Both the position numbers and the translations under genes were made by a program. DNA of 48,515 nt from Bacteroidota bacterium (GTDB lineage: Bacteria; Bacteroidota; Bacteroidia; Bacteroidales; JAAUTT01): positions 1 through 48,515 of the forward strand of contig JAJYAG010000027.1 in NCBI GenBank assembly GCA_021779665.1. The letters run 5' to 3'. The notes under the pieces were generated by a model. That model worked only from the letters and a program-made list of their open reading frames with translations, did not search any database and was not told the origin of the DNA. Within the stretch, counting starts at the first letter, position 1. Each line of letters starts with the position of its first letter. Shown piece by piece: positions 209 to 34,996 of this stretch.

Positions 209-2296
209 ATGATGCAAAAGCGTTTGCTTTACTGCCTTATTCTGCTGCTAATCTATCTAACCTTGCCGGCTCAGACAAATCTGGGCTTTGAACAGGGAAA
301 CTTCAACAACTGGGTGGGATATACCTGGCTGTACAGCACCGATGCTACCTATGTAAATACACAACCCGTTCCGGGAATAGTTACCCGCCGCCACACCATC
401 ATGTCCGATACCTCTGCCTACGATGCCAACACAGGATTTAAACTCAGAAAAATACCAAAAGGCTATAAATATAGTGCCCGGCTTGGTGATCAAATCATTT
501 CAACTACTGATAGAAATCCCCGCGCCTGGCAGCAGAGTTTGCGTTACACCATGAAGATCGATTCATCCAATGCTTTACTCATCTTTAAGTATGCACTGGT
601 TTTGCAATATGCAGCCAATCACACCGAAAAAGTTGAAGCCCGGTTTAAACTCACGCTTTATGATAAAGATGGCAATGTTATTCCCGATTGTTCCAATTAC
701 GATGTTTATGCAAGCAACCAGCTCGTAAAGGGATTTAACCTGTATACCCCTACAAGCTCCACAGGAAGCAATACACCTGTAAACTGGCGCGACTGGACAA
801 CTGTTGGCGCCAACCTCATAAAGTATCTGGGCCAAACCATAACCATCGAGTTTATGGCTACTGACTGTACAGGTCGTTATCATTATGGTTATGCTTATTT
901 TGTTGCTGATTGTCAGCCCTTAAACATTACTGTAAAATATTGTGCAAAGGACTCAGTGGCCGCACTTACCGGTCCAATAGGTTTTGAATCGTATAAATGG
1001 CGGAATAAGGACAATGTTTTACTGGATTCATTACAAACCCTAAAACTTCCAAAACCTTCAGAAGGTGAAACATTTACATGTACAATGCAGTCGGCTACCG
1101 GATGCTTGGTTTCTCTCAGTTCCACTATCGCCAAATTCGTCCCTAAAGCAGACTTTACGGCCTATATAATAGATTGCAAAAGTAACACGGTTCAATTTAC
1201 CAATCTTTCGACATCTACAAGAGGAACATTGCAATACAAATGGATTTTTGAGGATAGTGTGACATCCCTTCAGAAGAATCCACGATATAAGTTTAAGACA
1301 TCGGGACTTCATCCGATGTCGCTGATTGTCAGAAACCATCCCTCCACCTGCGCTGACACCATAAAACAGGTGGTGGAATCATTTTCGCCACCGTTAGTCG
1401 GAATAAAAGGTGATTCAACCTATTGTCCCAATTCAACTGCAGTTTTGAATGCCTATGGCGCCTACCGGTACGATTGGAGCAACGGATCCAAAGCAGGAAC
1501 TTTAGAGGTTTCGCATCCGGGAGGAACTTTTTGGGTAGTAGGACATTCCAGCACAGGTTGTCATTCCGATACCATTTACAGAACGGTTAAAGAAGATCCC
1601 TACTGGGAATTTCTTTCGGAAAGTGATACAACGCTTTGTACCGGATTCACTTCCATGCTAAAGGTGTCAGGAGCAACAAAATATAAATGGAATACTGGAG
1701 ATACAATAAATTCAATTACTGTAAAAACTCCGGGCAACTACAATGTTACCGGATACAATAAAAGAGGCTGTGAAAAATCTTTTTCGTTTAATGTGTCAGA
1801 ATATCCTATTCCGGGGGTTATTTTTTCTACCTACCCTTCCACCCTCAACAGCAAATATAACCAGCTAAAGGGCTCCTTAACGGCCGAAACGGGGGTAAAC
1901 TACCTCTGGGAAATGGGCGACGGATCCTATGAAAAAGGCTCTTCCATCAACCATGATTACAACATAACCAACTACGCTTTGCAATATAAGGTAAAGCTTA
2001 CTGCTGTAAGTCAGTACGATTGTGCAGATTCAGCCATAAAAATAATCAATGTGGTTCCTTTTGTTCCCAATGTTTTTACTCCGAATGGCGACGGGGTAAA
2101 CGATCTTTTTATGCCCGGACTGGAAATTCAAATATTCGACAGGAATGGTTTGCTTCTTTATCAGGGAAAAGACGGCTGGGATGGTCAGTATAAAGGACGT
2201 CCCATGGATCCTGACACTTATTTCTATTCTATCCGGTATTCGTACGACGAACAGGAAATTCACTCACAAAAAGGCTTCATAACTTTAATCCGATGA
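209..2296 (+). CDS. PKD-repeat surface protein with gliding-motility (type B) T9SS C-terminal domain
   Basis: This is a predicted exported, cell-surface or released protein of about 695 residues. An ATGATG at 209-214 opens a good signal peptide (basic MQKR, then a hydrophobic run ending LPAQ), so I start here and not at the in-frame TTG at 164. Residues about 20-240 form a first domain of unknown type. They are followed by Ig/PKD-like beta domains rich in paired Cys and motifs such as YKWIFED and YLWEMGDGS. The last 80 residues are a gliding-motility (CHU_C, type B) sorting domain: VPNVFTPNGDGVNDLF, then IFDRNG, GWDGQYKGRP and a terminal GFITLIR. Family knowledge says such domains route proteins through T9SS and need a PorP/SprF partner, which is the next gene (4-bp ATGA overlap). 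The ligand is unknown. Confidence 0.85.
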   Translation: MMQKRLLYCLILLLIYLTLPAQTNLGFEQGNFNNWVGYTWLYSTDATYVNTQPVPGIVTRRHTIMSDTSAYDANTGFKLRKIPKGYKYSARLGDQIISTTDRNPRAWQQSLRYTMKIDSSNALLIFKYALVLQYAANHTEKVEARFKLTLYDKDGNVIPDCSNYDVYASNQLVKGFNLYTPTSSTGSNTPVNWRDWTTVGANLIKYLGQTITIEFMATDCTGRYHYGYAYFVADCQPLNITVKYCAKDSVAALTGPIGFESYKWRNKDNVLLDSLQTLKLPKPSEGETFTCTMQSATGCLVSLSSTIAKFVPKADFTAYIIDCKSNTVQFTNLSTSTRGTLQYKWIFEDSVTSLQKNPRYKFKTSGLHPMSLIVRNHPSTCADTIKQVVESFSPPLVGIKGDSTYCPNSTAVLNAYGAYRYDWSNGSKAGTLEVSHPGGTFWVVGHSSTGCHSDTIYRTVKEDPYWEFLSESDTTLCTGFTSMLKVSGATKYKWNTGDTINSITVKTPGNYNVTGYNKRGCEKSFSFNVSEYPIPGVIFSTYPSTLNSKYNQLKGSLTAETGVNYLWEMGDGSYEKGSSINHDYNITNYALQYKVKLTAVSQYDCADSAIKIINVVPFVPNVFTPNGDGVNDLFMPGLEIQIFDRNGLLLYQGKDGWDGQYKGRPMDPDTYFYSIRYSYDEQEIHSQKGFITLIR

Positions 2297-3240
2297 AAAG
2301 ATATTTTTTTATTCTGATCGCCATTACTCTTTCATCGGTTAAAACGGTTAAGGCTCAATCGGATATTAACATGGCCACCCACTGGTATAACCGGACAAAT
2401 TATAATCCTGCTTCCATTGCCAAAGTAAATTATGCTTACTTTTTCTCAAACTACAGGCAACAATGGATAGGTGTTGACGGGGCTCCACGGGTTTTCAATA
2501 TTCAGGCTTCGGAATACATTCATAAGTATCGTTCGGCAGTTGGATTTTCGCTTGTTGCGGACAAATTAGGGGTCACAAGAGCTTATAATCCTATGCTTAC
2601 TTATGCCTACCGTTTGGCAAAAAGCAGAGGGTGGTCGGTTTCAATGGGATTGTCGGCCGGAGTTTTCTCCCGTCTTATAGATGGAACAAAATTCGAAGCC
2701 GAAACGACCACAGATCAATATATTACCTACCAAAGAGAAAGTACAGTTTCTCCCGACTTTAATGCAGGTATAGAATTGCAAACAACACATTTCATTGTTG
2801 GTCTGTCCTCCACACACCTGGCGGCTATAGCCAAACCGAACAGCGATTTCCTGAATACCAATCATCACTACGGCTACCTGATTTATAAAAACACCAATCT
2901 TACATCCATCAACTACAATTTAGGAACACAGGTGGTGAATCGCCATAATCTCACAATACTGGAGCTAAATACCAGTATTCGCTTCAAAAAGGGTACAGGC
3001 CTTATGGATGGCGCTAAAGAAATTTTCGATTTAGGCTTTTCCTATAGAACATCCAGACAGGTGGCTCTTCTGGCTGGAATTAACATCCTGCCTAATGCCC
3101 GGATTGCTTACGTTTACGAACAAAGGTTTCAGAATGGATATTTCAGGAATAACACCCACGAAATTGCCATCGAATGGAGAATTCTCAACAAGGCCGCTTC
3201 AGACCACAATCCCTGCGACAATGAATTTTGGTATCATTAA
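2293..3240 (+). CDS. PorP/SprF family type IX secretion-associated outer-membrane protein
   Basis: Predicted outer-membrane beta-barrel of 315 residues. It has a signal peptide (MKRYFFILIAITLSS...KAQ) and the family hallmark start of the mature part: NPASIAK followed by YRQQWIGVDGAPRVF. Alternating hydrophobic strands and an aromatic C-terminal region fit an outer-membrane barrel. SprF-like members are known to be needed for secretion or surface attachment of specific type B cargo. The start codon overlaps the stop of the preceding cargo gene in an ATGA, suggesting translational coupling and that the two form a cognate pair. This cognate role is inferred from position. A core PorP role is less likely because a second paralogue sits 4.4 kb downstream. 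Confidence 0.85.
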   Translation: MKRYFFILIAITLSSVKTVKAQSDINMATHWYNRTNYNPASIAKVNYAYFFSNYRQQWIGVDGAPRVFNIQASEYIHKYRSAVGFSLVADKLGVTRAYNPMLTYAYRLAKSRGWSVSMGLSAGVFSRLIDGTKFEAETTTDQYITYQRESTVSPDFNAGIELQTTHFIVGLSSTHLAAIAKPNSDFLNTNHHYGYLIYKNTNLTSINYNLGTQVVNRHNLTILELNTSIRFKKGTGLMDGAKEIFDLGFSYRTSRQVALLAGINILPNARIAYVYEQRFQNGYFRNNTHEIAIEWRILNKAASDHNPCDNEFWYH

Positions 3241-3252
3241 GATATATTGCCT

Positions 3253-6200
3253 ATGAAATTTTTTATACTCCGACTAAATCTGCTAATTGTCTTCACTCAT
3301 ATTTGCTTTTCGGCCTTTGGTCTCTCAGCTAAATTTACCTATACCAAAAGAAGTAACTGCGCTCCTACTGTTGTTGAATTTACAAATAATTCAACGCAGG
3401 GAGCCGGAATAACTTATGAATGGGACTTTGGACTGGGTGCGGTTATTACCACAAGCGACCCGTCGAAAAAAGAGCAGATTTATACCAAGCCGGGAAAATA
3501 TACGGTTACACTCAAAGTTTATGATGGAGTCACCACGGAGACCACAAGCACAACGGTAACAATTTCACAGGGACCAACTGCCAGTTACAGCACCAATATA
3601 ACCAGTGGATGTGTACCTCTCAATGTAAGCTATAACAGCACATCTGCACAAGGTGATACAGCAATTGCCAGTACGAACTGGGATTTCAGAAATGGTGATT
3701 TTAAGTCAGGTACAACAGTGCAGTACACCTACAACAAAATTGGGAAATATGGAATTTTGCTGAAGGTGACCGATAAAAACGGATGCTCGGCTTTTGTTGA
3801 GACAGATAGTTTGATAAAGATAGTGAACACGCCTGTTGTGAAGTTTATGGCCAGTGATACTGCGGCATGTAACCCTCCTTTGAATGTCAGTTTTACAAAT
3901 TTTTCGACCGGGGCATCTGATTTGACATATCTCTGGGAGTTTGGAAACGGAAAAACATCAACTGAAGTCAGCAACTCCACAACCTATGAATCCAAAGGTC
4001 AATTTGATGTAAAATTGACTGCTACCGACCAGTTTGGCTGTTCTTCGGCACTCGAGAAGAAAGGATTGATAAATATAGGAAATCCCACCGGAACCATTTA
4101 TGTACTCGATTCCCGGAAAAACACTGTCACAGGTACACGCCTCTGCAGCGGCACATATACTTTTGGATTTTCGGGCGGTAATTTGCCGGTTTGTACTTGG
4201 ACCATTGCGGACAATAATAAGACCACAACTGTTTCAGGAACTAACACGATCACATATACGGTTAAAGACACAGGGACCATCAAGGTGAACTTTGCATATG
4301 GCACCAGCTTAACTTGTACTGATGTAATTCAGAAGACTTTCGTGAAAAGCAACATTAAAGCAGATTTTACAGTTGATCTGAATCTTTTCTGCTCCCTGCC
4401 CCAACAAATAAAACTTACAAATGTATCAGTAAACCCGAATACCTATTCGTGGTACATTTCAAAGAAATTGTTTTCAAACTCAGCCAGTCCTGACTACACC
4501 ATTACTGCTTCCGATGTACCAGAGAAAACATACAAGCAGCTTTACAATCATGAAGTTGATTCGGTTTTGCTGCCCATTAAGTTAATTGTTACCAATAGCG
4601 ACGGTTGCTCCGATTCCCTTATCCGGAATACATGGCTTTCCGCACCAGTAGCCCGATTTTTGCCCGACAAAACCTCAGGATGCGCACCTTTACCGGTGGT
4701 TTTTTCCGACAGCAGCCGCTGGTCGTCCAAAATAGACTCTTATACTTACTTAATAGATGGTAAAACAATTACATCTGCCAATAAAACCCAAAGCTATACA
4801 TTTGATAAGCCGGGTATTTACGATATAAAAGAAATCGTAAAAAGCGGCGGATGTACTGATACCTCTCACATTGTACAAATTGCAATCGGCACAAAGCTGA
4901 AGCCCGATTTTACAGTTTCGCCTTCAGAGGTTTGCAATGGGGACAAAATCAGGATTATTGGCAATTCTGATAATGATGCAGCCATCCGAAGCTGGCGGCT
5001 GAAATCGGCCGGAATATTTGATTTTAAAGCTTATCATAATCCCGACACATTTGTTACTGTTGACTCGGACACCGCAGGGTTAAAGAGCATTACCCTGCAG
5101 GTGGATTATAACGGATGTTTCTCCGATACAACCAAAAAGAATATTTATAAAATTGTGGGTCCTGTCGGGAATTTCTTCGAATCGTTTTCGTGCGATTCTG
5201 CCTTGATTTACCGCTTCAAATCTAAAATTACGCCTGCAACCTCACTCACCTGGAATATCGATACTGCGGTAATAACTGACAAAGATTCGGCGCGGCATAA
5301 ATTTAAAAAGAGCGGCGATTATGATATAAAGCTTACCGCTGTCGACAATCTTACGAGCTGTTCTTTAAAGCGCTCCAAAACAATTAAAGTGCGGCAAATA
5401 AAAGCCGGTTTTGTCCTGGAGGATACAGTTTTTTGCGCAGGCGATTCGGTAAAGATGAATGCTTTGTCTTCCGTTGACTATATTAACTCGTGCTATAACG
5501 AGGGTTTTCTCTGGTATTTTGGGGATGATTCTCCTCCGCGACGAGTTTCAACTCCAAAATACAGCCATGTTTACACTGCAAGAGGGAAATTCAAGCTGTT
5601 GCTTATTACAACTGCTGATAATGGCTGTATCGACTCTACGAAACAGTATGTTAACATTAAAAAGCCCAAGGCTACTTTTACGGTTGATAAATACTCAGGA
5701 TGTGTTCCCAACTTCCTTGTCAATTTTACAAATACCTCGACCGACAGCACTATTGTCAATGCCGTATGGGATTTTAACGATGGTGCCATTGATAATTCCC
5801 AGGCAAAAACTATTGCCCACACTTTTGTCAGTGACAAGCAAAGAACTTTTTTACCCACGCTCACAGTTTACGATGCCTACCAATGCCCGGGCGATTATAC
5901 CTCATCAGTCAGATTGGTTGCTGTAAACAGCGATTTTCAGGCAGATGATAATGCAATATGTGCCGGTCATAAGGTTACATTTACACCGGTCGACAACAGC
6001 CTGGACAGTGTCATCTGGAATTTTGGTGAGGGGCAGACCTCTAAAACTATTAATTACCATACTTACAACAACAAAGGTTTATTTACGCCAAAACTGACAG
6101 CTTATAAAAATGGATGCAGCGCTACTGTATCTAAAATGAATTATTTAAGTGTGGAAAAGGCTGACGGCGCTTTTTGGGTAAGTGACAGCATTTTGAAATG

Positions 6201-7644
6201 CTACCCTGATACTATCAATTTTATTCACCGAAACACCAACGGAAGTCCGGTTGTTGAGCGCAGCTGGATAATCAATACAAATGGATTAACCAATGATAAC
6301 GACACCATTAAATATGTATTTTCGAAACCCGGCAACTACAATGCACAGCTATTTGTAAGAACGTTAAACGGATGCGAGGCAAACAGCTCAAAAATAATTG
6401 CTATAAGCGGACCATCAGCAAAATTCGGATTTTCACCAACAAAAATCTGTTATGGGGAATATGTTGATTTCCAAATGAATTCTCCACAAGAGGTAACTCA
6501 GTGGAAATGGTTATTTGGCGATGGCAATACATCGGCAGAAAATCCTGTTTCGCACCGGTATACATCGCGTGGAAAATTAATTCCGGCAATTACCCTTATA
6601 AATAAGGATTGCAGCGTGACACTTCCTATGGATACACTGCTGGTAGATCCTGTGAGAGCAGCTTTTATTCAGAAGGACAGTGTCGCCATATGTTTTGGCA
6701 GCAAGGCAAGTTTTACAAATAAATCGTTGTTCTCAGAATACTGGACATGGAAGATCAATGGGGTATTTAAAAACAATGAGCAGGATTTAAAAGATGTTCT
6801 ATTTACGGGCAAAGGCCAAAACACCATTACTTTAATTGCTTCGAGCGACGATTGCAGCGATACACTGGTGCGCAACTACACCGTTTATGCCAACCCTGTG
6901 TTTAAGATTAATGGCGATTCAGTTCTCTGTAAAGGCCAGAATTCTATTCAATTAAGTGTTAATAAGCTGGACGGATGGAAAATAAAATGGTCGCCCACTT
7001 CGGGAATTGATAATTCAACGGCATTCACGGTAGCTGCAAGTCCCACGGCTACAACAACCTACCTGGCTACTGTAACCGATGCCTATGGATGCACTTCTAC
7101 AAATGGCAAAACAATACTGATAAACCAACTTGCTAATTATTTAAGGGTTCCACGCGCTGATACAACCATCAGCATTGGCGATAAAATTAATTTATCGATT
7201 ATAACCGGCAGTCCTGATATAACTTACTCCTGGTCGCCCCAATACAATATATCGTGTACCGATTGTAACAATCCGCTTGTAAATCCCACCAAAGATGCTA
7301 GTTACACTGTCCAGATCAAAAACAACTGCGTGGATTTTACCGAAAAGTTCAACATCAAGGTAATTTACGATTTTTACCTTGAAGCACCATCAGCCTTCAC
7401 TCCCAACGGAGATTCGAATAACGACGTTTTCAGTTTCGAAGAAACAAATATCCAAACCTTTGAATTGAAAATTTTCAACCGCTGGGGCCAACTGGTATTT
7501 TCCACCAACGATTTGAATGAGGGTTGGGATGGAACATTTAAAGGACGCGTGCAGAATGCCGATACCTACACCTATATGGTGAAAGCCGAAACCGTGAAAG
7601 GTTATAAATTTGAAAAGAGTGGTAATTTTCTGTTACTTAAATGA
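3253..7644 (+). CDS. giant multi-PKD surface protein with gliding-motility (type B) T9SS C-terminal domain
   Basis: A 1,463-residue exported protein. I use the ATG at 3253 (MKFFILRLNLLIVF, a clean signal peptide); an in-frame TTG at 3247 would add two residues only. The mature part is an array of about a dozen divergent PKD/Ig-like domains of 85-95 residues. They show the repeated pattern of a Cys-Pro start, a W-x-F-G/D-G strand (YEWDFG, YLWEFGNGK, WKWLFGDGN) and a G-x-Y closing strand. The end is a CHU_C/type B sorting domain: AFTPNGDSNNDVF, IFNRWGQLVF, GWDGTFKG, GNFLLLK. By analogy with SprB-like adhesins it should form a long surface filament or adhesin. It starts 12 bp after the first SprF-like gene and ends 3 bp before the second. 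No enzyme domain is seen. Confidence 0.88.
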   Translation: MKFFILRLNLLIVFTHICFSAFGLSAKFTYTKRSNCAPTVVEFTNNSTQGAGITYEWDFGLGAVITTSDPSKKEQIYTKPGKYTVTLKVYDGVTTETTSTTVTISQGPTASYSTNITSGCVPLNVSYNSTSAQGDTAIASTNWDFRNGDFKSGTTVQYTYNKIGKYGILLKVTDKNGCSAFVETDSLIKIVNTPVVKFMASDTAACNPPLNVSFTNFSTGASDLTYLWEFGNGKTSTEVSNSTTYESKGQFDVKLTATDQFGCSSALEKKGLINIGNPTGTIYVLDSRKNTVTGTRLCSGTYTFGFSGGNLPVCTWTIADNNKTTTVSGTNTITYTVKDTGTIKVNFAYGTSLTCTDVIQKTFVKSNIKADFTVDLNLFCSLPQQIKLTNVSVNPNTYSWYISKKLFSNSASPDYTITASDVPEKTYKQLYNHEVDSVLLPIKLIVTNSDGCSDSLIRNTWLSAPVARFLPDKTSGCAPLPVVFSDSSRWSSKIDSYTYLIDGKTITSANKTQSYTFDKPGIYDIKEIVKSGGCTDTSHIVQIAIGTKLKPDFTVSPSEVCNGDKIRIIGNSDNDAAIRSWRLKSAGIFDFKAYHNPDTFVTVDSDTAGLKSITLQVDYNGCFSDTTKKNIYKIVGPVGNFFESFSCDSALIYRFKSKITPATSLTWNIDTAVITDKDSARHKFKKSGDYDIKLTAVDNLTSCSLKRSKTIKVRQIKAGFVLEDTVFCAGDSVKMNALSSVDYINSCYNEGFLWYFGDDSPPRRVSTPKYSHVYTARGKFKLLLITTADNGCIDSTKQYVNIKKPKATFTVDKYSGCVPNFLVNFTNTSTDSTIVNAVWDFNDGAIDNSQAKTIAHTFVSDKQRTFLPTLTVYDAYQCPGDYTSSVRLVAVNSDFQADDNAICAGHKVTFTPVDNSLDSVIWNFGEGQTSKTINYHTYNNKGLFTPKLTAYKNGCSATVSKMNYLSVEKADGAFWVSDSILKCYPDTINFIHRNTNGSPVVERSWIINTNGLTNDNDTIKYVFSKPGNYNAQLFVRTLNGCEANSSKIIAISGPSAKFGFSPTKICYGEYVDFQMNSPQEVTQWKWLFGDGNTSAENPVSHRYTSRGKLIPAITLINKDCSVTLPMDTLLVDPVRAAFIQKDSVAICFGSKASFTNKSLFSEYWTWKINGVFKNNEQDLKDVLFTGKGQNTITLIASSDDCSDTLVRNYTVYANPVFKINGDSVLCKGQNSIQLSVNKLDGWKIKWSPTSGIDNSTAFTVAASPTATTTYLATVTDAYGCTSTNGKTILINQLANYLRVPRADTTISIGDKINLSIITGSPDITYSWSPQYNISCTDCNNPLVNPTKDASYTVQIKNNCVDFTEKFNIKVIYDFYLEAPSAFTPNGDSNNDVFSFEETNIQTFELKIFNRWGQLVFSTNDLNEGWDGTFKGRVQNADTYTYMVKAETVKGYKFEKSGNFLLLK

Positions 7645-7647
7645 TAT

Positions 7648-8703
7648 ATGCTCATGATATTAAGTTTCAATAGCAGCAACCGAAGAAGGCTTTTTTACCT
7701 ATTAGCTGTTTTGATGTTGTCTTTCCCGCCAGGACTAAAGTTAATGGCACAGGAAGCTCATTTCTCGCAGTTTTACACTACGCCTTTGCTGACTAACCCT
7801 GCAAATACCGGGATGACTGATAATCTGCGTTTTGCTAATAATTACCGCAATCAATGGGCAAAAATCGGGGTACCTTATAAAACACTGTATACTTCGCTCG
7901 ATTCTAAAATTGCCATAGCCGGGAAATCTTTCGGAATTGGAGCCATGATAGTTCACGATCAGTCGTCGGCTTACAATCTGGCTGCCGATCAGTTTCTGGT
8001 TTCATTCAGCTACTCGCGGATAATCAATAACCATCAGTTTACCGTGGGCATTCAGCCGGGATTTGTATCAAAAGCTTACAATACCAATGGATTAACCTTT
8101 GGAAGCCAGTTCGACGGAACCAGTCAGCAGTATAATCCGCGACTCACCAGCTACGAGAATTACCTTTCCAACAATATGGGCTTTTTCGATCTGAATGCAG
8201 GGGTTTACTGGAGAACACTTATCAGGAATTTTATGCCTTCAGCGGGGTTTTCAGTAAGTCATATCAACAGCCCAAAAGCTTCTTTTTCGAGTTCGGCTGA
8301 AGCAACCCGGTTGCCTTTAAAGTTTACTTTCAACAGTCAGGTCGACATTCCACTTAGCAAACGATTTAATATTGTCCCGGGAATGCTTTACAGTTATGTT
8401 TCCGGAGCCAATGAACTGCTTTTGGGTGGAACGGAAAATTATGCCATCACCGACTTCTTCATTCCGGCCAAAAAGATTTACGCCATTACTTATGCCCGTG
8501 TAAATCCCTTCCAAAACCTCGATGCATTGATTCTTGGCGGAGGTATTAAGTTTGCGAAGTTCGACATCGGTCTTTCGTACGATATCAACATTTCGCCTTT
8601 GGCACAGGCTTCGAATTTTAACGGGGCTTTTGAGCTATCGCTGGTTTATACCGGGGCGGGTAAATCAAAAAGAAACATTCACGAACCGTGCATTATTTAT
8701 TAA
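7648..8703 (+). CDS. PorP/SprF family type IX secretion-associated outer-membrane protein, second copy
   Basis: A 351-residue barrel protein. The signal peptide follows a basic SNRRR stretch and ends at LMAQ; the mature start EAHFSQFYTTPLLTNPANTG is the PorP/SprF signature, followed by YRNQWAKIG. It resembles well-known PorP/SprF members more closely than the copy at 2293. It begins 3 bp after the giant PKD gene and its stop is 1 bp before the next start, so it belongs to the same transcript. By position it is the likely outer-membrane partner of the 1,463-residue cargo. A later in-frame ATG at 7654 could also be the start. The family assignment is secure; the partner assignment is inference. 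Confidence 0.9.
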   Translation: MLMILSFNSSNRRRLFYLLAVLMLSFPPGLKLMAQEAHFSQFYTTPLLTNPANTGMTDNLRFANNYRNQWAKIGVPYKTLYTSLDSKIAIAGKSFGIGAMIVHDQSSAYNLAADQFLVSFSYSRIINNHQFTVGIQPGFVSKAYNTNGLTFGSQFDGTSQQYNPRLTSYENYLSNNMGFFDLNAGVYWRTLIRNFMPSAGFSVSHINSPKASFSSSAEATRLPLKFTFNSQVDIPLSKRFNIVPGMLYSYVSGANELLLGGTENYAITDFFIPAKKIYAITYARVNPFQNLDALILGGGIKFAKFDIGLSYDINISPLAQASNFNGAFELSLVYTGAGKSKRNIHEPCIIY

Positions 8704-8704
8704 G

Positions 8705-10783
8705 ATGAAGAATAAAATAATACTCATAATTACACTGCTGTTCGTCGTTTCGGATTTTGCACTTTCAGGAATGGTTTCCCGGAACGATTCTATTGAGAAA
8801 CTGGCTGCCGAAATGAAATCGAAAGCTGCAAAGTTCGACCGGCAAAACGATGTTTACAATGCCATTTATTATTATAGCCGGTATCTCACTTACAAACACA
8901 AGGATATAAAGCTGAATTACCGTTTGGCTAACCTGTACTTCAATACACGCGAATATCGGAAAGCTTATCAGTATTACGATTCGGTGATTCATCTGAGCAA
9001 AACCAAATATCCTTTAACCTATTACTACAAAGGAATTGTTTGCATGAACCTCGAAAAATATGACGAAGCCATAGAGGTCCTGACCAAATTCAGAAAGTTA
9101 TACAAGGAAAACAAAAAAGATAATTACCGGCGACTGGCAACCGTTTACATCGAAAGTGCCACCTGGGCAAAGAACCAGCCGGAAGCAGACGGTGGTATTG
9201 TAGTCAGTCATCCCGGAATGGCCCTGAATCATTCCAATATCGACTTTGCCCCATTTCCCCTCGATGACAATACGTTACTTTATGGTTCGGTTTACAGCGA
9301 CACCGCAAAAAAAATTGGTCCGGTACGTCAAATCTTCAAAGCAGTTAAAACCGATGAAGGCTGGAAACCGACAGGCTTATTTGAACCAGCAATTAACGAT
9401 CAGGCCTTTAATACAGGCAATGCGGTAATATCCGGCAACGGAAAGAGTCTTTATTTTACCAGAAGCAGAAAAAACTGGCAAAACGCAGAGATCAGCGAAA
9501 TTTTCGTGAGCAGGCTTGTGGACGATGTATGGCAAACGCCCGACAAACTTCCCTATCCGGTGAACGATGAAAACTATACAACCACTCAACCGGCTGTAGG
9601 TCGCAATATGAGAACCGGCAACGAAATACTGTTTTTTGTATCGAACCGTTCAGGCGGAAAAGGCGGTCTCGATATCTGGTTTACAGAGTTCGATAAAAAA
9701 GCAAACGCCTGGAAAGAACCTCAGGATCTGGATAAAAACGTAAACACCGCAGATGACGAATGCTGCCCGTTTTACGATGTTTCCACATCAACGCTTTATT
9801 TCAGCTCCAAAGGCCGTAAAACCCAGCTTGGCGGCTATGATATCTTTAAAGCCACCGGTTCCACAAAAAAATGGACCGAAGCCCTGCCCATGCCTAAGCC
9901 TGTAAACTCGCCCTTCGACGACTATTATTTCTCAATTCTTCCCAATAACAAGGAAGGATATTTTACATCGAACCGGCCAGGCTCTGCAAACCTGGACAAT
10001 GGCAGTTGTTGCGACGATATCTATACTTTCCGCATCAACGAATGTTCAATGGTATATGCCCTGGGAACAATACGCAGTTCGGTCAACTACGATGTTTATG
10101 ATGAACTTAACAAGAAATACCACCTCAATCTTGAATATCCGAAAGACAGCAGCGTTTTAAACAATGTACCGGTTGAACTCTATATGGCCGGCGATTCTCT
10201 TGAAGATGAAATACTTGTTTCGCAAACGCAAACGGATGAAACCGGTAAATACAATTTCAACCTTGAAAAAAACAGGAATTATAAAGTACTTGTCAAGAAT
10301 TACGGCTATTTCGAAAAGAAAGTACCCGTCAGTACTGTTGGTTTTAACTGCAACGATACGCTCAAAATTGGTTCAACCCACATCAGCTACCTTCCTAAGG
10401 TAAATATCAGAATTAACATCTATTATGCCCATAACGAGTACCGACTTTCGTACGATGCCAAAGCAACGATTGATACCACCCTGGTGCCTTTGTTCGAGTT
10501 GTTTCCAAATGCGATCATCGAAATTGGTTCGCATACCGATAGCACAGGAACCGATCAGTATAACATCAAACTTTCGCAGAAAAGGTCGGAGAGTGTGGTT
10601 AATTACCTGATTACAAAAGGAATTTCGAGCGAAAGATTAGTTGCGAAGGGATATGGAATGCGTTTGCCTGTAGCTCCTAATACCAATTCCGATGGTTCTG
10701 ACAATCCTGAAGGAAGACAACTGAACCGGAGGACCGAAATAAAAATTGTTGGCGAAATCTCAGCTTTTAACAACGAAGAATAA
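8705..10783 (+). CDS. PorE-like TPR / beta-propeller / carboxypeptidase-regulatory-like / OmpA protein
   Basis: A 692-residue periplasm-facing protein. I start at ATG 8705, giving MKNKIILIITLLFVVSDFALS as signal peptide; the upstream extension to 8534 lies inside the previous gene and is spurious. The domains in order are TPR-like helices (about residues 30-150, with repeated YYKGIVCMNLEKYDEAIEVL-type pattern); a PD40/beta-propeller (about 175-440, strands like LLYGSV, LYFTRSR, LYFSSKGR, GYFTSNRPG); a carboxypeptidase-regulatory-like domain (about 485-545); and an OmpA C-terminal peptidoglycan-binding domain (about 565-690, EIGSHTDSTGTDQYN and LSQKRSESV). This is the domain plan of PorE, which anchors the T9SS machinery to peptidoglycan. 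Location directly after two cargo/SprF pairs supports a T9SS-linked role. Whether it is the core PorE or a dedicated paralogue cannot be told here. Confidence 0.85.
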   Translation: MKNKIILIITLLFVVSDFALSGMVSRNDSIEKLAAEMKSKAAKFDRQNDVYNAIYYYSRYLTYKHKDIKLNYRLANLYFNTREYRKAYQYYDSVIHLSKTKYPLTYYYKGIVCMNLEKYDEAIEVLTKFRKLYKENKKDNYRRLATVYIESATWAKNQPEADGGIVVSHPGMALNHSNIDFAPFPLDDNTLLYGSVYSDTAKKIGPVRQIFKAVKTDEGWKPTGLFEPAINDQAFNTGNAVISGNGKSLYFTRSRKNWQNAEISEIFVSRLVDDVWQTPDKLPYPVNDENYTTTQPAVGRNMRTGNEILFFVSNRSGGKGGLDIWFTEFDKKANAWKEPQDLDKNVNTADDECCPFYDVSTSTLYFSSKGRKTQLGGYDIFKATGSTKKWTEALPMPKPVNSPFDDYYFSILPNNKEGYFTSNRPGSANLDNGSCCDDIYTFRINECSMVYALGTIRSSVNYDVYDELNKKYHLNLEYPKDSSVLNNVPVELYMAGDSLEDEILVSQTQTDETGKYNFNLEKNRNYKVLVKNYGYFEKKVPVSTVGFNCNDTLKIGSTHISYLPKVNIRINIYYAHNEYRLSYDAKATIDTTLVPLFELFPNAIIEIGSHTDSTGTDQYNIKLSQKRSESVVNYLITKGISSERLVAKGYGMRLPVAPNTNSDGSDNPEGRQLNRRTEIKIVGEISAFNNEE

Positions 10784-10799
10784 AGAAAACATAAAATAT

Positions 10800-11654
10800 A
10801 TGGCCCGTCTGAAATATACTTTGATTTCCATGCTGGTTCTTATCAGCTTTTCGTCGAAAGCCCAGTTTGCGCTGCCCGACAGAGTGGCTGGCACTCCCTC
10901 CTACCTCGACGAAATTGTGAAGAATTACACCGACGAAAAAGCTTATCCGTTTAGTTTAAATACAGCTGATTTAAATGCAAATGTCCCCATTCGCATTCAT
11001 ATTATAAAAAATAGCAAAGGATTAACAGGGGTTAAGACTTCAGACATCCAAAGCAGCATTACTTTGGCGAACAGCTTCTTTTTGAATATCGGAATCAGGT
11101 TCTTTATCGATTCGGTAAATGTTATAAACGATTACAACTATGGTTTTATAACGAATAACCATCTTAAAAAGGAACTCCTGACCTTGTATGCCGCTCAAAA
11201 CAAGATAAATCTGTTTCTGGCCGATTCAATTCAGACAGGCAGCGAAAAAACCTACGGCTTTACTTATTTCCCTACCGATGCAGATAGTAACTTTATTTTT
11301 CTGGATAAAAGATATGCAAAAGGCAACTATCTAACCACCATGCTGGGGCATTTTATGGGGTTACTATCCACACATGAGAGCGGAAAGGGCCGGGAACTGG
11401 CGAGTGAAAAAAACTGTTCCACTGCTGGTGACTTTATTTGTGATACCTATGCCGATCCTGATCTGTTCGGTCAGGTCGACAGTACCTGTAACTATTCAGG
11501 CAGCGTAAGAGATAATGAAGGAAAGTATTTTATACCTACCGTGGCCAATGTCATGTCTAACTCGCCCGATGCATGTAAATGTATTTTCACTCCACTTCAA
11601 TATAAGCGCATGTACTACTATTTTTTAAAGTACAGACAAAAATTGAGATTCTAG
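10800..11654 (+). CDS. pappalysin/M43-like protein with a degenerate zinc site (probable pseudoprotease)
   Basis: A 284-residue exported protein. The start at ATG 10800 gives a signal peptide ending SSKAQ; 17 bp separate it from the PorE-like gene. The C-terminal half has the layout of pappalysin-type (M43B) metalloproteases: the helix where HExxHxxGxxH is expected, then CSTAGDFICDTYADPD, then a Met-turn NVMSNSPDACKC followed by FTPLQYKRM. The expected zinc helix reads T180-M-L-G-H184-F-M-G187-L-L-S190, so the first His, the catalytic Glu and the third His are replaced (by Thr, Met and Ser) while H184 and G187 stay. The gene is otherwise intact, so loss of catalysis with retention of the fold is the simplest reading. 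A binding or structural role in the T9SS operon is inferred. Confidence 0.7.
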   Translation: MARLKYTLISMLVLISFSSKAQFALPDRVAGTPSYLDEIVKNYTDEKAYPFSLNTADLNANVPIRIHIIKNSKGLTGVKTSDIQSSITLANSFFLNIGIRFFIDSVNVINDYNYGFITNNHLKKELLTLYAAQNKINLFLADSIQTGSEKTYGFTYFPTDADSNFIFLDKRYAKGNYLTTMLGHFMGLLSTHESGKGRELASEKNCSTAGDFICDTYADPDLFGQVDSTCNYSGSVRDNEGKYFIPTVANVMSNSPDACKCIFTPLQYKRMYYYFLKYRQKLRF

Positions 11655-11943: not shown

Positions 11944-14364
11944 ATGAAACATCTTTACCACCTGACTTTCACAACGGTGCTGCTATTTTTAGCCACCCTT
12001 CATTCACTGGGACAAATAACTCCGGCCCAGGTACCGATTAAGCCTAATAAAGTCCCTCAGTTTGTCGATCCGCTGCCACATTTTGCTGGTAATCGTATTG
12101 ATGCTTCCGGCGGAAAACTTTACATTAAGTACGTCCCCGTTCCCGATCAGATTGCAGTTTCAACCGGAACACAACTTGCTACCGGGAAAGTTGGTGTTAC
12201 CCCTAACGCTGGTAAAGCAAGGTTCTGGGGGTATTCCGTTTCGACTGACAATATTAATTTTACAAAACCCAATTGGCCTGCTTTTACGGTTGTAGCCAAG
12301 AAAGGAGTTCCCGTTGATGTGGTTTACTCAAACGAATTGTATAACGAAACTTATGCAAATGTAAATCTGATAGTTGATCAAACCGTGCATTGGGCTGCTC
12401 CTCTTGGAATGGACATGATGAATATGATGCCCTACATGGGACCTGTTCCTGTGGCTCCCCATCTCCATGGTGGCGAGGTGGCGTCTGAATCGGACGGCGG
12501 ACCAGATGCCTGGTTTACTCCCGGATATCAGATAAAAGGCCCTTCCTGGCAAAATGGTGTCGATGAAAATTACCATTATCCCAACACGCAGGAAGAAGCA
12601 ACTTTATGGTATCACGACCATGCTTTGGGGGCTACCCGCCTGAATGTTTATGCAGGACTTGCAGGTTTTTACTTTTTGAAAGGAGATAACGAAGAAAATG
12701 CCAAACTCCCGGGATGGTCTGGTGACGACCTTGTTCAGGAAGTTGCTCCGGTTGGTAAAACAGGTGTTTTCAACCCCCAACCTTACCTACCCGAAATTGA
12801 AGTTGTATTTCAGGACAGGATGTTCGATACCAACGGGCAGCTCTATTATCCCAATTTGCCTACCAACCCGATGATTCACCCTTACTGGACACCAGAGTTT
12901 CTGGGTGATATCATTACCGTAAATGGAAAAACATGGCCTTATCTGAGCGTTGCTCCCAGGAAATATCGTTTCAGACTGTTGAACGGATCGAATGCAAGAT
13001 TCTATCAAATTTGGCTTCAGGATGTTGGCTCTGGAGCAAATGGCCCTGCAATAATACAGATAGGAACTGACGGTGGTTTACTGGATAGTCCGGTCATTGT
13101 AAACGGAAAACTGCTGCTGGCACCCGGTGAACGTGCCGATGTGATTATTGATTTTACGAATTCCGCACCAGGACAAGTATGGACCGTCCGTAATTCGGCC
13201 CGTGCCCCCTTCCCTGCAGGGGCTCCTGCATCAGCAGCTACAACAGGACGATTAATGCAGTTTGTTGTAAACGGGAAAATGGTGTCGAAGGCTAATCCGG
13301 CTCTTGCCGGATCTGACAAAAGTCTGCTACCTGCAGCCTTACGTCCCACGCCTCTTGTAAAACTTACAAACTTTGCAGGAGTTACAAATGTTATCCCCGA
13401 CTTAAAACGACAAATTACTTTAAATGAAGTAATGGGCATGGGTGGCCCTCTCGAAGTGTTGATGAATAACACAAAATGGATGGATGCTGTTACCGAGAAT
13501 CCCCAGGAAGGAACAACAGAATTATGGCAAATTATTAACATGACAGCCGATGCACATCCCATTCATCTTCACCTGGTTCAGTTTCAGCTTGTAAGTCGTC
13601 AGGCCTTTGACATGAAAAGGTATACGCCTGTTTACAATGCAGCTTTCACGGGAGGAATGTATATACCATCCGTAGGATCGCCACTTCCTTATAATACTAA
13701 GAATGCAGACCAGGCCGTTGGTGGTAATCCAGCCATCACTCCATTTCTCGTTGGACCTGTAAAACCCGCTTTACCTAACGAAATGGGATGGAAAGATACT
13801 TACATTGTATATCCGGGTGAAGTAACAACTTTTGCAGTCCGGTTTGCTCCAACTGATTTACCTCTGACTACACCTCAAGCTGATCTTCGCTTTGCTTTCG
13901 ACCCGAGTGCAGGTCCTGGATACGTATGGCATTGTCATATTATCGACCACGAAGACAATGAAATGATGCGGCCTTATACAGTGGTAAGAAATCCGGGATT
14001 AGCAGCCAAATCGAACTCCAACAAGGGCAAATATACTCCTGAGGGTGGCACTTCTGCTGCTAAGCCGGAAGCTATTCAATACAATAAGATTGACCTTACT
14101 TCAAATACAGTATTGTATCAGAATTATCCTAACCCATTCAATAACGAGACGGAGATCAGATTCAATATTCCCGAAGATGCCCATGTACGGTTAACTTTGT
14201 TTAATCAGCTCGGACAAAAAGTTAAAGTGCTGATTGATGCAAATGCACCTGCCGGAAGCAATTTTGTAAAACTTTACAGGGTTAACCTTACAACCGGGGT
14301 TTATTACTATCAGTTAGAAACCGGAACATTCAAGGATGTAAAGAAGATGGTTGTAGCTGATTAA
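11944..14364 (+). CDS. CotA-like multicopper oxidase with type A T9SS sorting domain
   Basis: An 806-residue secreted copper oxidase. The signal peptide is residues 1-24 (ending SLGQ). All copper motifs are present and arranged as in CotA/bilirubin oxidase-type enzymes: HLHGG (H173, H175), LWYHDHALGATRLNVYAGL (H224, H226), HPIHLHLVQF (H538, H541, H543) and WHCHIIDHEDNEMM (H663, C664, H665, H669, axial M674). It should oxidise phenolic or tetrapyrrole substrates or metal ions while reducing oxygen to water; the substrate is unknown. Residues about 720-806 are a type A T9SS tail (YQNYPNPFNNETEIRF, LTTGVYYYQLETG, KKMVVAD), so the enzyme is exported by T9SS. A Met-rich patch (MDMMNMMPYM, residues 156-165) precedes the first copper motif. 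The gene stands alone, with a terminator just downstream. Confidence 0.92.
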   Translation: MKHLYHLTFTTVLLFLATLHSLGQITPAQVPIKPNKVPQFVDPLPHFAGNRIDASGGKLYIKYVPVPDQIAVSTGTQLATGKVGVTPNAGKARFWGYSVSTDNINFTKPNWPAFTVVAKKGVPVDVVYSNELYNETYANVNLIVDQTVHWAAPLGMDMMNMMPYMGPVPVAPHLHGGEVASESDGGPDAWFTPGYQIKGPSWQNGVDENYHYPNTQEEATLWYHDHALGATRLNVYAGLAGFYFLKGDNEENAKLPGWSGDDLVQEVAPVGKTGVFNPQPYLPEIEVVFQDRMFDTNGQLYYPNLPTNPMIHPYWTPEFLGDIITVNGKTWPYLSVAPRKYRFRLLNGSNARFYQIWLQDVGSGANGPAIIQIGTDGGLLDSPVIVNGKLLLAPGERADVIIDFTNSAPGQVWTVRNSARAPFPAGAPASAATTGRLMQFVVNGKMVSKANPALAGSDKSLLPAALRPTPLVKLTNFAGVTNVIPDLKRQITLNEVMGMGGPLEVLMNNTKWMDAVTENPQEGTTELWQIINMTADAHPIHLHLVQFQLVSRQAFDMKRYTPVYNAAFTGGMYIPSVGSPLPYNTKNADQAVGGNPAITPFLVGPVKPALPNEMGWKDTYIVYPGEVTTFAVRFAPTDLPLTTPQADLRFAFDPSAGPGYVWHCHIIDHEDNEMMRPYTVVRNPGLAAKSNSNKGKYTPEGGTSAAKPEAIQYNKIDLTSNTVLYQNYPNPFNNETEIRFNIPEDAHVRLTLFNQLGQKVKVLIDANAPAGSNFVKLYRVNLTTGVYYYQLETGTFKDVKKMVVAD

Positions 14365-28519: not shown

Positions 28520-29863
28520 TTATTTTATATCAAGTTCTACTCTCCTGTTTTTGGCCCTGTTTTCTTCTGAGTTATTGGGAGCAATGGGTACTTTAAAGGC
28601 TTTACTGTAAATCTCCATCTGAGAAGAGGGAACTCCTTCCTTCGAAAATAAATGACGTACTTTCCTGGCCCGTTTTAATCCTACTTTATAATTCGCATTG
28701 TACGATCCGAGGTTACATGTATGACCGGTAATTATAAGGGTTATGTCTGGATTCCTTTTCAGAATATCCGCCAGGGCAGCTATCTTTTCAGGTTCAGGAT
28801 TGAGTACTTCATCCGAATTGAGCTTAAACTGAACTCTGATTTCGTTCACCAGCTTCATTGCTTTTTGATAATCTGTTTCAGGGATAGAATCGGAAATAAC
28901 GGTTTTATTCTCCGAAGGAAGATGTCCATTCCTGGATGCTAATTTCTCTTCAGGAATTTTTTGAAGATTCTGGTTCATTGACACCGAGTCAACTTTGTCC
29001 GGTTCAAATACCGGATAAAGTGATTCTTCATTAAATTCTTTCACCTTTTTCCTGAAAGTCCAGACGATTCCAACTTTTACACCCACAGCAACAGGTTTGA
29101 CATTGTCGGTCAACGCCGACCGCAAAACTCCGTTGTATGCTCCGTCACCTTCATAAACGGGTTTCTTCTGATCATTAATTGTATTGTTCAATCCCTGATG
29201 GTAGTATCCTCCGGCATACAGGCTAAATGTTTCTGTAAGTGAATAAAGAACCCCTAACTCACCAAAAGCCGAAAAAGCTGTTTTTAAAGAAATATCCCCT
29301 TGCGGATGCGAGGTTAAGGTGGTAAATCCATGCTGTGGCATATTTTTCAGTTCGACATTCCACTGGCTGTAATACCCGGTGGTTGTAATGGAACCATCTT
29401 TCACTTTAAACTCGCTGTTTGTTGGAAAAGACGCCATCAATCCTACAGATGTCTGTAAAGTAAACTTTTTCCAAAAGAGTCGGTTCTGAAAAGCAACAGG
29501 GATGTCAATCAACATGGTTTTCTGCTGTTCCTTCCAGTTGCTGAAATAATTCCTGAACTCGTAATCTACACCTTCGGAATCGACCGATGGCAATCCTAAC
29601 ATAAAATTATCAAGAGAAGCTTCTGCCTTCATCGATTTAACACCTAAACCCGAAGAAAAGCCCCAGTTACGATGAAAGAAGTATCCATATCCGGCATTTA
29701 TTGTAAAACCATTACCGTTTTCGTATTTCCCCTGGGTTAACGGGTACGATATGTTATGCATACCACCTCCCCCATTCAGGTAAAAATAATGACCGGCTGG
29801 TTGCTGGGCAAAACCAACCATGAAAATGAAAAGAACAATATTGATCAGAATTATTTTTTTCAT
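28520..29863 (-). CDS. OmpA-family protein with N-terminal outer-membrane beta-barrel
   Basis: A 447-residue outer-membrane protein. The ATG at 29863 gives MKKIILINIVLFIFMVGFAQ as signal peptide; an ATG at 29875 is an alternative. Residues about 25-270 look like an 8-strand or larger barrel (HYFYLNGGGGMHNISYPL, GFTINAGYGYFFHRNWGFSSGLG, LYAGGYYHQG). A linker follows, then an OmpA C-terminal domain (about 340-447, DITLIITGHTCN, KVGLKRARKVRHLF, NRRVELDIK) that binds peptidoglycan. It starts 52 bp after the giant adhesin gene on the same strand, so it probably shares the transcript and may anchor or support it. Confidence 0.85.
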   Translation of the reverse strand: MKKIILINIVLFIFMVGFAQQPAGHYFYLNGGGGMHNISYPLTQGKYENGNGFTINAGYGYFFHRNWGFSSGLGVKSMKAEASLDNFMLGLPSVDSEGVDYEFRNYFSNWKEQQKTMLIDIPVAFQNRLFWKKFTLQTSVGLMASFPTNSEFKVKDGSITTTGYYSQWNVELKNMPQHGFTTLTSHPQGDISLKTAFSAFGELGVLYSLTETFSLYAGGYYHQGLNNTINDQKKPVYEGDGAYNGVLRSALTDNVKPVAVGVKVGIVWTFRKKVKEFNEESLYPVFEPDKVDSVSMNQNLQKIPEEKLASRNGHLPSENKTVISDSIPETDYQKAMKLVNEIRVQFKLNSDEVLNPEPEKIAALADILKRNPDITLIITGHTCNLGSYNANYKVGLKRARKVRHLFSKEGVPSSQMEIYSKAFKVPIAPNNSEENRAKNRRVELDIK

Positions 29864-29915
29864 TGGAGACTTCATTTCTTTTAAGCGAAAAAAGTTAGGA
29901 AAATACGACATCTTA

Positions 29916-34964: not shown

Positions 34965-34996
34965 AATCATTAGAAGAGATAAGTTAGATTCTGATG

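Follow-up and report, generated by a model that had tools for sequence, protein, structure and literature searches.

A composite block of type B cargo genes of the type IX secretion system in a Bacteroidota contig, ending in a pappalysin-like gene without its active-site motif

We analysed a stretch of 48,515 nucleotides from a Bacteroidota bacterium (contig JAJYAG010000027.1 of assembly GCA_021779665.1), called the window below, which takes up all of contig G000:C287 in a draft genome of 6.9 Mb, from base 1 onwards. Within its first 11.65 kb, at 209-11654, six plus-strand open reading frames (ORFs) lie head to tail and encode two cargoes of the type IX secretion system (T9SS), their partner proteins and a protease-like protein (Table 1). 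By sequence comparison, genes 3-5, namely the large cargo K, its SprF-like shuttle S2 and the PorE-like anchor E, are a conserved module, while genes 1 and 2 (cargo C1 and shuttle S1) are an unrelated, separable cargo/shuttle pair, and the block is a composite of the two. It is probable, in our judgement, that the block serves surface assembly on the cell's T9SS with carriers and a wall anchor of its own, and that the product of gene 6, M, has turned from an enzyme into a binding factor.

Table 1. Genes of the six-gene block, with positions in the window
Gene	Product	Length	Position	Strand	Features
1	Cargo 1 (C1)	695 aa	209..2296	+	Leader, N-terminal region, PKD domains, type B C-terminal domain
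2	Shuttle 1 (S1)		2293..3240	+	PorP/SprF-like barrel, pairs with C1
3	Cargo 2 (K)	1463-1465 aa	3247 (or ATG 3253)..7644	+	Ten PKD_4 stretches, type B C-terminal domain
4	Shuttle 2 (S2)		7648..8703	+	PorP/SprF-like barrel of the K module
5	PorE-like anchor (E)	692 aa	8705..10783	+	TPR, PD40 propeller, weak CarboxypepD_reg-like match, OmpA
6	Pseudo-pappalysin (M)	284 aa	10800..11654	+	Sec-like leader (by eye), HExxH and tyrosine switch lost

The ORF calls and domain matches agree with the head-to-tail order and the gene types named in an earlier note on this DNA. C1 and K are predicted type B cargoes of the T9SS, with a C-terminal TIGR04131 match above the curated cut-off of 35 bits (54.2 bits and 60.7 bits, respectively), and both match PKD_4 (1.6e-15 and 1.6e-68) and CHU_C (5.3e-14 and 4.6e-17). 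The two shuttles belong to the PorP/SprF family, since they exceed the cut-offs of PF11751 (S1, 1.5e-40 and 139.9 bits; S2, 7e-39 and 134.4 bits; cut-off 22.3) and TIGR03519 (154 and 159.9 bits; cut-off 90.55). Gene 5 joins TPR (TPR_1, 1e-7), propeller (PD40, 1.9e-9) and C-terminal OmpA (6.4e-16) regions in one protein and is a putative PorE-like anchor in the wider sense; it scores far below the cut-off of core PorE (NF052230 T9SS_PorE, 214.9 bits against 600) and below that of the CHU_0125 family of OmpA-like proteins (NF053607, its best NCBIfam match, 269.8 bits against 620). For gene 6, the Peptidase_M43 match is sub-threshold only (E 0.004; it scores 17.5 bits where 23 are required). The junctions from gene 1 to gene 6 are a 4-nt overlap followed by gaps of 6 (12 from the ATG), 3, 1 and 16 nt. 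We infer a single transcript for the block; a scan for sigma-70 promoters and terminators gave no more sites than shuffled sequences did, which counts against our overall reading.

The six-gene order is found on the same strand in five other loci. It is complete in L077; in L120, L130, L137 and L142 the fetched stretch stops inside gene 1, whose far end is missing. In a seventh case (G010) it is split over two contigs, of which L304 holds C1, S1 and the start of K, and L080 the end of K followed by S, E and M, while the sequence of L104 and L115 ends before the order could show. Because the same order and strand recur in other loci, the arrangement is not due to chance. Nor is it specific to this strain; of the three outcomes that the earlier note had named as refuting its claim, this one and the other two did not occur. 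Complete homologues of K (about 1300-2050 aa) also stand beside SprF and PorE-like genes in other genomes.

M was found in four of the five genomes of the bacterium's own family. Among 295 genomes of its order, 46 match M at E<=1e-6, of which 13 have the clear short form (E<=1e-29, frame of at most 312 aa), two have short frames at contig ends (G158, 303 aa, E 1.5e-10; G087, 327 aa, E 7e-12) that are unclassed and stand outside the 13, and the rest are longer proteases or fragments of them. A scan of genome contigs kept the best 80 of 499 relatives, and a class search took in 395 genomes; from the latter, all matches with a frame of at most 350 aa were fetched except G481:C36 (300 aa, at a contig start). 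Three of the genome surveys (the class search, that for module E and a further one) scored at most 6, 3 and 7 candidates per genome, respectively, and their genome counts are lower bounds. With short M defined as up to 350 aa, 72 unique loci were left after removing repeats (L103, L114, L117, L121, L139, L091, L076 and L045, on the contigs of L077, L082, L083, L084, L086, L078, L089 and L090) and the duplicates L210, L211, L214 together with one copy of L241, which was present twice. Short M has a K, S or E gene at a distance of up to 3 kb in 67 of these 72 loci, as against none of the 52 longer M43 genes from the same searches (Fisher 1.4e-29), for which none was seen within 6 kb either. All three are among the five ORFs on either side of short M in 52 of the 72. 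In the remaining five, L089 (cut by its contig end), L235, L237, L241 and L243, the neighbourhood shows none of K, S and E; the 72 include these loci, whereas the 67 and the M tree do not. Three records titled Bifidobacterium breve, Candidatus Scalindua and unicellular cyanobacterium (L099, L107 and L163) hold M43 genes close to Bacteroidota ones, possibly on mis-binned contigs.

The composite nature of the block is seen in the trees of its parts. In a quick SprF tree, 49 module SprF (43 from single loci and 6 from double loci) are split at 100* from 11 other genome SprF and six S1, and the six S1 form a group of their own (100*) on a long branch among the other SprF. The tree of the type B C-terminal domains (CTDs), which has few columns, agrees, with pair 1 on one side of a branch with support 93. 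The PorE-like tree, also a quick one and with long-branch warnings on the own-genome rows, splits 53 module E at 100* from core PorE and nine other own-genome relatives. Besides, C1-S1 is a two-gene locus alone in G004, a genome of the same genus in which neither M (at 1e-4) nor module E (at 1e-150) was found. C1 of the window is 60% identical to the L077 copy and 59% to this stand-alone copy; its AlphaFold2 (AF2) model is poor (pLDDT 49.7). Because the trees separate the two pairs and G004 has C1-S1 alone, the block joins a C1-S1 pair that can occur by itself to a K-S-E-M module. Tandem duplication was considered as the source of the doubled pair and rejected: S1 and S2 share only 25% identity over 207 residues (E 5e-5) and fall in different parts of the SprF tree, and C1-S1 occurs alone. 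The doubled cargo/SprF pair of the earlier note thus stands in that two pairs are present, not as a duplication, pair 1 being unrelated and separable. A second large cargo matching the K profile was observed within a few genes of the module in L084, L097, L232 and L234.

Module E is present in at least 43 of the 295 order genomes (E<=1e-150), and all 13 genomes with clear short M are among them (hypergeometric 2.3e-12, with the unclassed frames left out; G158 and G087 are not among the 43). In the other 30, a profile search at 1e-10 gave no complete short M, which weighs against M as an integral part, as K-S-E does not need it; the match of G051 in that search, on a 231-aa frame cut at the contig start, is unclassed. 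Twenty fetched contexts of module E lack an adjoining M; their E was identified from its score and is not among the tree rows, some are short contigs, and 18 are from genomes without full short M, the other two (L289 and L290) from genomes with M elsewhere (G126 and G242). K, S and E are together in 14 of these contexts, S and E only in 3, and E only in 3. Because 30 module-E genomes are without full short M and 14 of the 20 M-less contexts keep K, S and E, we regard K-S-E as the core and M as accessory. A module defined by M was rejected on the same 14 contexts. K adjoins M where S and E are not nearby (e.g. L096, L100 and L209). Two tandem copies of module E stand beside one S and one K in L287, L288 and L289, which come from three genomes of a single family (f5).

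Gene 6 is predicted to have the fold of a pappalysin (M43) catalytic domain. Its AF2 model (pLDDT 87.8, pTM 0.85) matches ulilysin, mirolysin and PAPP-A, with a Foldseek E of 8.1e-10 to ulilysin 2j83, and VIA-align gave its best Z of 21.6 (243 residues, 3.0 A) to 8cdb, proulilysin E229A. The sequence reads TMLGHFMGLLS where HExxHxxGxxH is expected in an active M43 protease, and its Met-turn is MSN, without the tyrosine two residues after the methionine, which is the tyrosine switch of mirolysin and ulilysin (PMC11674741, in excerpt). Gene 6 shares with the lower pappalysins described in the same excerpt (ulilysin, mirolysin and cytophagalysin) the catalytic-domain fold, the Met-turn methionine and the conserved cysteines, and it keeps one motif histidine and the glycines. 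Unlike them, it is without HExxH, the third zinc ligand and the tyrosine switch, so that of the three zinc ligands only one is left, and the general base and the switch are both lost. A Sec-like leader recognised by eye, no CTD match in the domain scans and no fit to the lipobox pattern suggest that the protein is periplasmic; a loose lipobox pattern fits 3 of the 72 short M.

The earlier note had called gene 6 an inactive protease, which is borne out by the loss of both HExxH and tyrosine, and the loss is wider than the window. HExxH is lost in 34 of the 67 module short M and kept in 33, while the longer M43 proteins keep it in 50 of 52. The Met-turn tyrosine is kept in 27 of the 33 short M with HExxH (2 are unaligned and 4 have another residue) and in none of the 34 without. 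Aspartate is the third ligand in six rows, and since three of these have HExxH and none of the three has the tyrosine, there are at most 33 active forms. Near the N-terminus, 18 of 67 short M show a CGT-like cysteine-switch pattern versus 35 of 52 long M43, hence even intact short M may, from these patterns, be without zymogen control. Two longer M43 genes with the motif lost (L149 3383-4888, 501 aa; L156 766-2199, 477 aa) read RQxGHYxSLYP with a short insert after it, and they are a pseudo-M43 line outside the K module.

On a tree of M built without the active-site columns, the catalytic state changes 10-11 times (11-13 times on bootstrap trees), and seven changes are forced by starred, that is well-supported, branches. 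The best tree needs 12 losses if regain of the motif is excluded; the early changes would be losses because such a regain is implausible, which is an assumption. The loss of the tyrosine goes with that of the motif: seven independent contrasts lie on starred branches, of which 4-5 go in the same direction and none in the opposite one, with a median p of 0.06 in a sign test. Since the independent contrasts give only this p value, the raw count of 0 of 34 is partly due to shared descent. Several features of the tree weigh against repeated loss from an active ancestor. A starred branch places the window clade, the L038 clade and L088 with the outgroup, so that most of the deepest splits divide dead forms from one another, and the separation of short from long M43 is weakly supported (68/96). 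By gene layout, HExxH is lost in 20 of 20 loci with M last, kept in 19 of 24 with the layout K<M>S>E> and kept in 3 of 8 with E<S<K<M>. The position of M as a driver of the loss is not claimed, as only three independent contrasts bear on it, and this too takes away from our reading.

If M were a decaying passenger, K-S-E would need no M, selection on it would be relaxed, its catalytic residues would erode and the gene would be lost in many lineages. We consider this unlikely, though it has more to recommend it than the other alternatives below: the absence of full short M from 30 of 43 module-E genomes, the 14 of 20 M-less contexts with K, S and E and the 10-11 changes of state are all as it predicts, and the L242 copy is very degraded (KFLLKTMGMPA). 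Besides, some dead M evolve faster than their neighbours, which also speaks against a retained role: in L232/L234 the ratio of nonsynonymous to synonymous substitution rates (dN/dS) of the dead M is 0.10 versus 0.04 for S and E, in L229/L216 the dead M outpaces both S and E, and in L093/L094 it outpaces E. Against decay stands the window clade, a group of nine rows (100/100*) which all have the nearly invariant T[ML]LGH[FY]MGLL[SA]; the predicted fold and the cysteines are also kept. The seven aligned dead M of this clade are 55-62% identical to the M of the window, and in the three close pairs among L120, L130 and L142 the dN/dS of dead M is 0.08-0.11, which marks purifying selection, beside 0.10-0.20 for S, 0.09-0.12 for E and 0.12 for K; the pairs of intact M that could be measured have 0.05-0.19. 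Between the window and L077 the synonymous sites are saturated, but the dN values are similar, with 0.28 for M, 0.27 for S, 0.26 for E and 0.35 for K. Overall, a retained non-catalytic role of dead M fits these sequences better than plain decay.

Window-type M could also be a changed enzyme, catalytic or metal-dependent through other residues, as one histidine of the motif remains along with the glycines, and the active-site helix shows strong conservation of its altered form. This is the least probable reading, and a very improbable one, given the loss of two zinc ligands out of three, of the general base and of the tyrosine switch, and given that a glutamate swap alone is a common route to inactive pappalysins (structure entries with E229A and E225A; the alanine form in the excerpt of PMC11674741).

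Across 48 loci, the correlations between the tree distances of S, CTD, E and M are 0.69-0.90; L228, which has a different kind of CTD protein, does not enter the SprF/CTD pairs. In partial Mantel tests on the same loci, S and CTD remain correlated given E (0.47, p 0.001), as do M and CTD given E (0.37), and the correlation of E and CTD given S is -0.02. Co-variation of the SprF proteins with the cargo CTDs, which the earlier note wanted checked as a test of co-evolution, is thus supported, both by the 0.47 correlation and by the matching separate groups in the double loci, and the pattern agrees with S as the direct partner of the CTD. On the other side, the correlation of S with E (0.90) is tighter than that of S with CTD (0.77), hence much of the co-variation is shared descent.

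Operons of cargo, SprF and PorE homologue are already known. Flavobacterium johnsoniae has five operons of a PorE homologue, a type B protein and SprF, including Fjoh_3952-3951-3950, and Fjoh_3952 is static, with the PorE homologue two genes on (PMC12618676). A type B cargo leaves SprA on an SprF-like carrier, which is proposed to be linked to peptidoglycan by a PorE-like partner, so that the surface protein is static (PMC9143113, PMC12618676). The block is like these operons in keeping a type B cargo, its cognate SprF-like shuttle and a PorE homologue together, and the CTD of Fjoh_3952 anchors statically; it is unlike them in that, in the excerpt of PMC12618676, each has one cargo and one shuttle and no M43-like gene is mentioned. 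In Porphyromonas gingivalis, the type B protein PG1035 is bound by PorP and PorP by PorE, which has TPR, propeller and a peptidoglycan-binding C-terminus (PMC9143113, in excerpt). Gene 5 has the same domains. Unlike this system, with its single PorP and single type B protein, the module copies here group apart from core PorE and the other SprF. Of the dedicated surface-assembly system in the earlier note, the separate groups of module SprF and PorE-like proteins remain; the cargo/SprF/PorE-like operon as such is not new, and gene 6 is an accessory.

The same excerpts bear on whether both cargoes are gliding-type mobile adhesins and the block a motility operon in place of a static anchor. The mobile adhesin SprB likewise makes use of a type B CTD and an SprF-like partner (PMC9143113, PMC12618676). 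We nevertheless rate motility as improbable, and somewhat more so than decay of M, because the mobile SprB, Fjoh_4750 and Fjoh_1123 of F. johnsoniae are not in PorE-like operons whereas the static Fjoh_3952 is (PMC12618676), and because the K module has a PorE-like group of its own. C1-S1 alone could still be mobile, or C1 could use another anchor, which would count against static anchoring for the whole block.

We infer, by analogy with these systems, the export route, the anchoring, the compartment, and the partner and role of M. As in homologues, both cargoes would cross the outer membrane through SprA, and each would be taken from the translocon by its own SprF-like barrel via the type B CTD. 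The K-S2 complex would be held static by the PorE-like E, whose OmpA domain would grip peptidoglycan, while C1-S1 would be a second pair with an evolutionary history of its own, brought into the block for joint production of the two surface proteins. M would descend from a pappalysin-type protease belonging to the K module. Where the site is intact, M most likely acts on K or its partners by trimming or quality control, either ahead of export or in the course of it. In the window lineage M most likely only binds, as a chaperone, a cap or a structural subunit for K or for the S2-E anchor, because the active site is gone but the constraint is like that of its neighbours. K or the K-carrier complex is the favoured partner because K adjoins M where S and E are not nearby. 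In its widest form, our proposal is that type B cargo modules of Bacteroidota own a fourth, undescribed part, a cargo-specific periplasmic pappalysin which was repeatedly made a non-catalytic binding subunit (at least seven times if there was no regain) and stayed beside its cargo, the form in the window being among those altered most and belonging to a composite operon that also took in a second cargo/shuttle pair; for this we see slightly less than an even chance.

The block is not self-contained, as the earlier note had put it, because the SprA translocon gene (C153, away from the block) and core porE are encoded elsewhere in the genome, which has 14 PF11751 places and 32 places matching NF052230, some of the latter being pieces of one gene. 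Core porE, the separate presence of which was to be checked, is a gene on C76 with 721 bits for NF052230 (cut-off 600), the sole match above cut-off, and gene 5 falls in a different tree group. A second, paralogous module is located on C305 of the same genome (L038 2773-11234), with K divergent and S-E-M on the other strand. Its E and M are 36% and 37% identical to those of the window, and its M reads HQFGHFLGLYH, a natural Glu-to-Gln change, with MSL at the Met-turn. The PAPP-A2 chain of structure 8sl1 has the same HQ, which we take to be engineered there.

How type B cargoes stay on the surface is a question that T9SS research has yet to settle. A module with its own groups of cargo, carrier and anchor and with M in all states, from intact to dead, provides natural experiments (active, Glu-to-Gln and fully dead M). 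If it is true that M binds the cargo or the anchor, the anchoring machinery of the T9SS would have a new component, and M would clearly exemplify repeated change from enzyme to pseudoenzyme in one gene neighbourhood. In the open-licence PubMed Central literature, we found no composite of two unrelated pairs, no recurrent pseudo-M43 component, no link of SprF with pappalysin, of pseudoprotease with type IX secretion or of pseudopeptidase with pappalysin, and nothing on inactive metalloprotease, pseudoenzyme and Bacteroidetes together, which is not proof of absence.

Elsewhere in the window, a 289-nt gap follows the block, and then comes a multicopper oxidase gene with a type A T9SS tail (Por_Secre_tail) at 11944-14364. 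On the minus strand, 28520-34970 holds a 1684-aa ORF and, 4 nt later, the gene of an OmpA-family protein.

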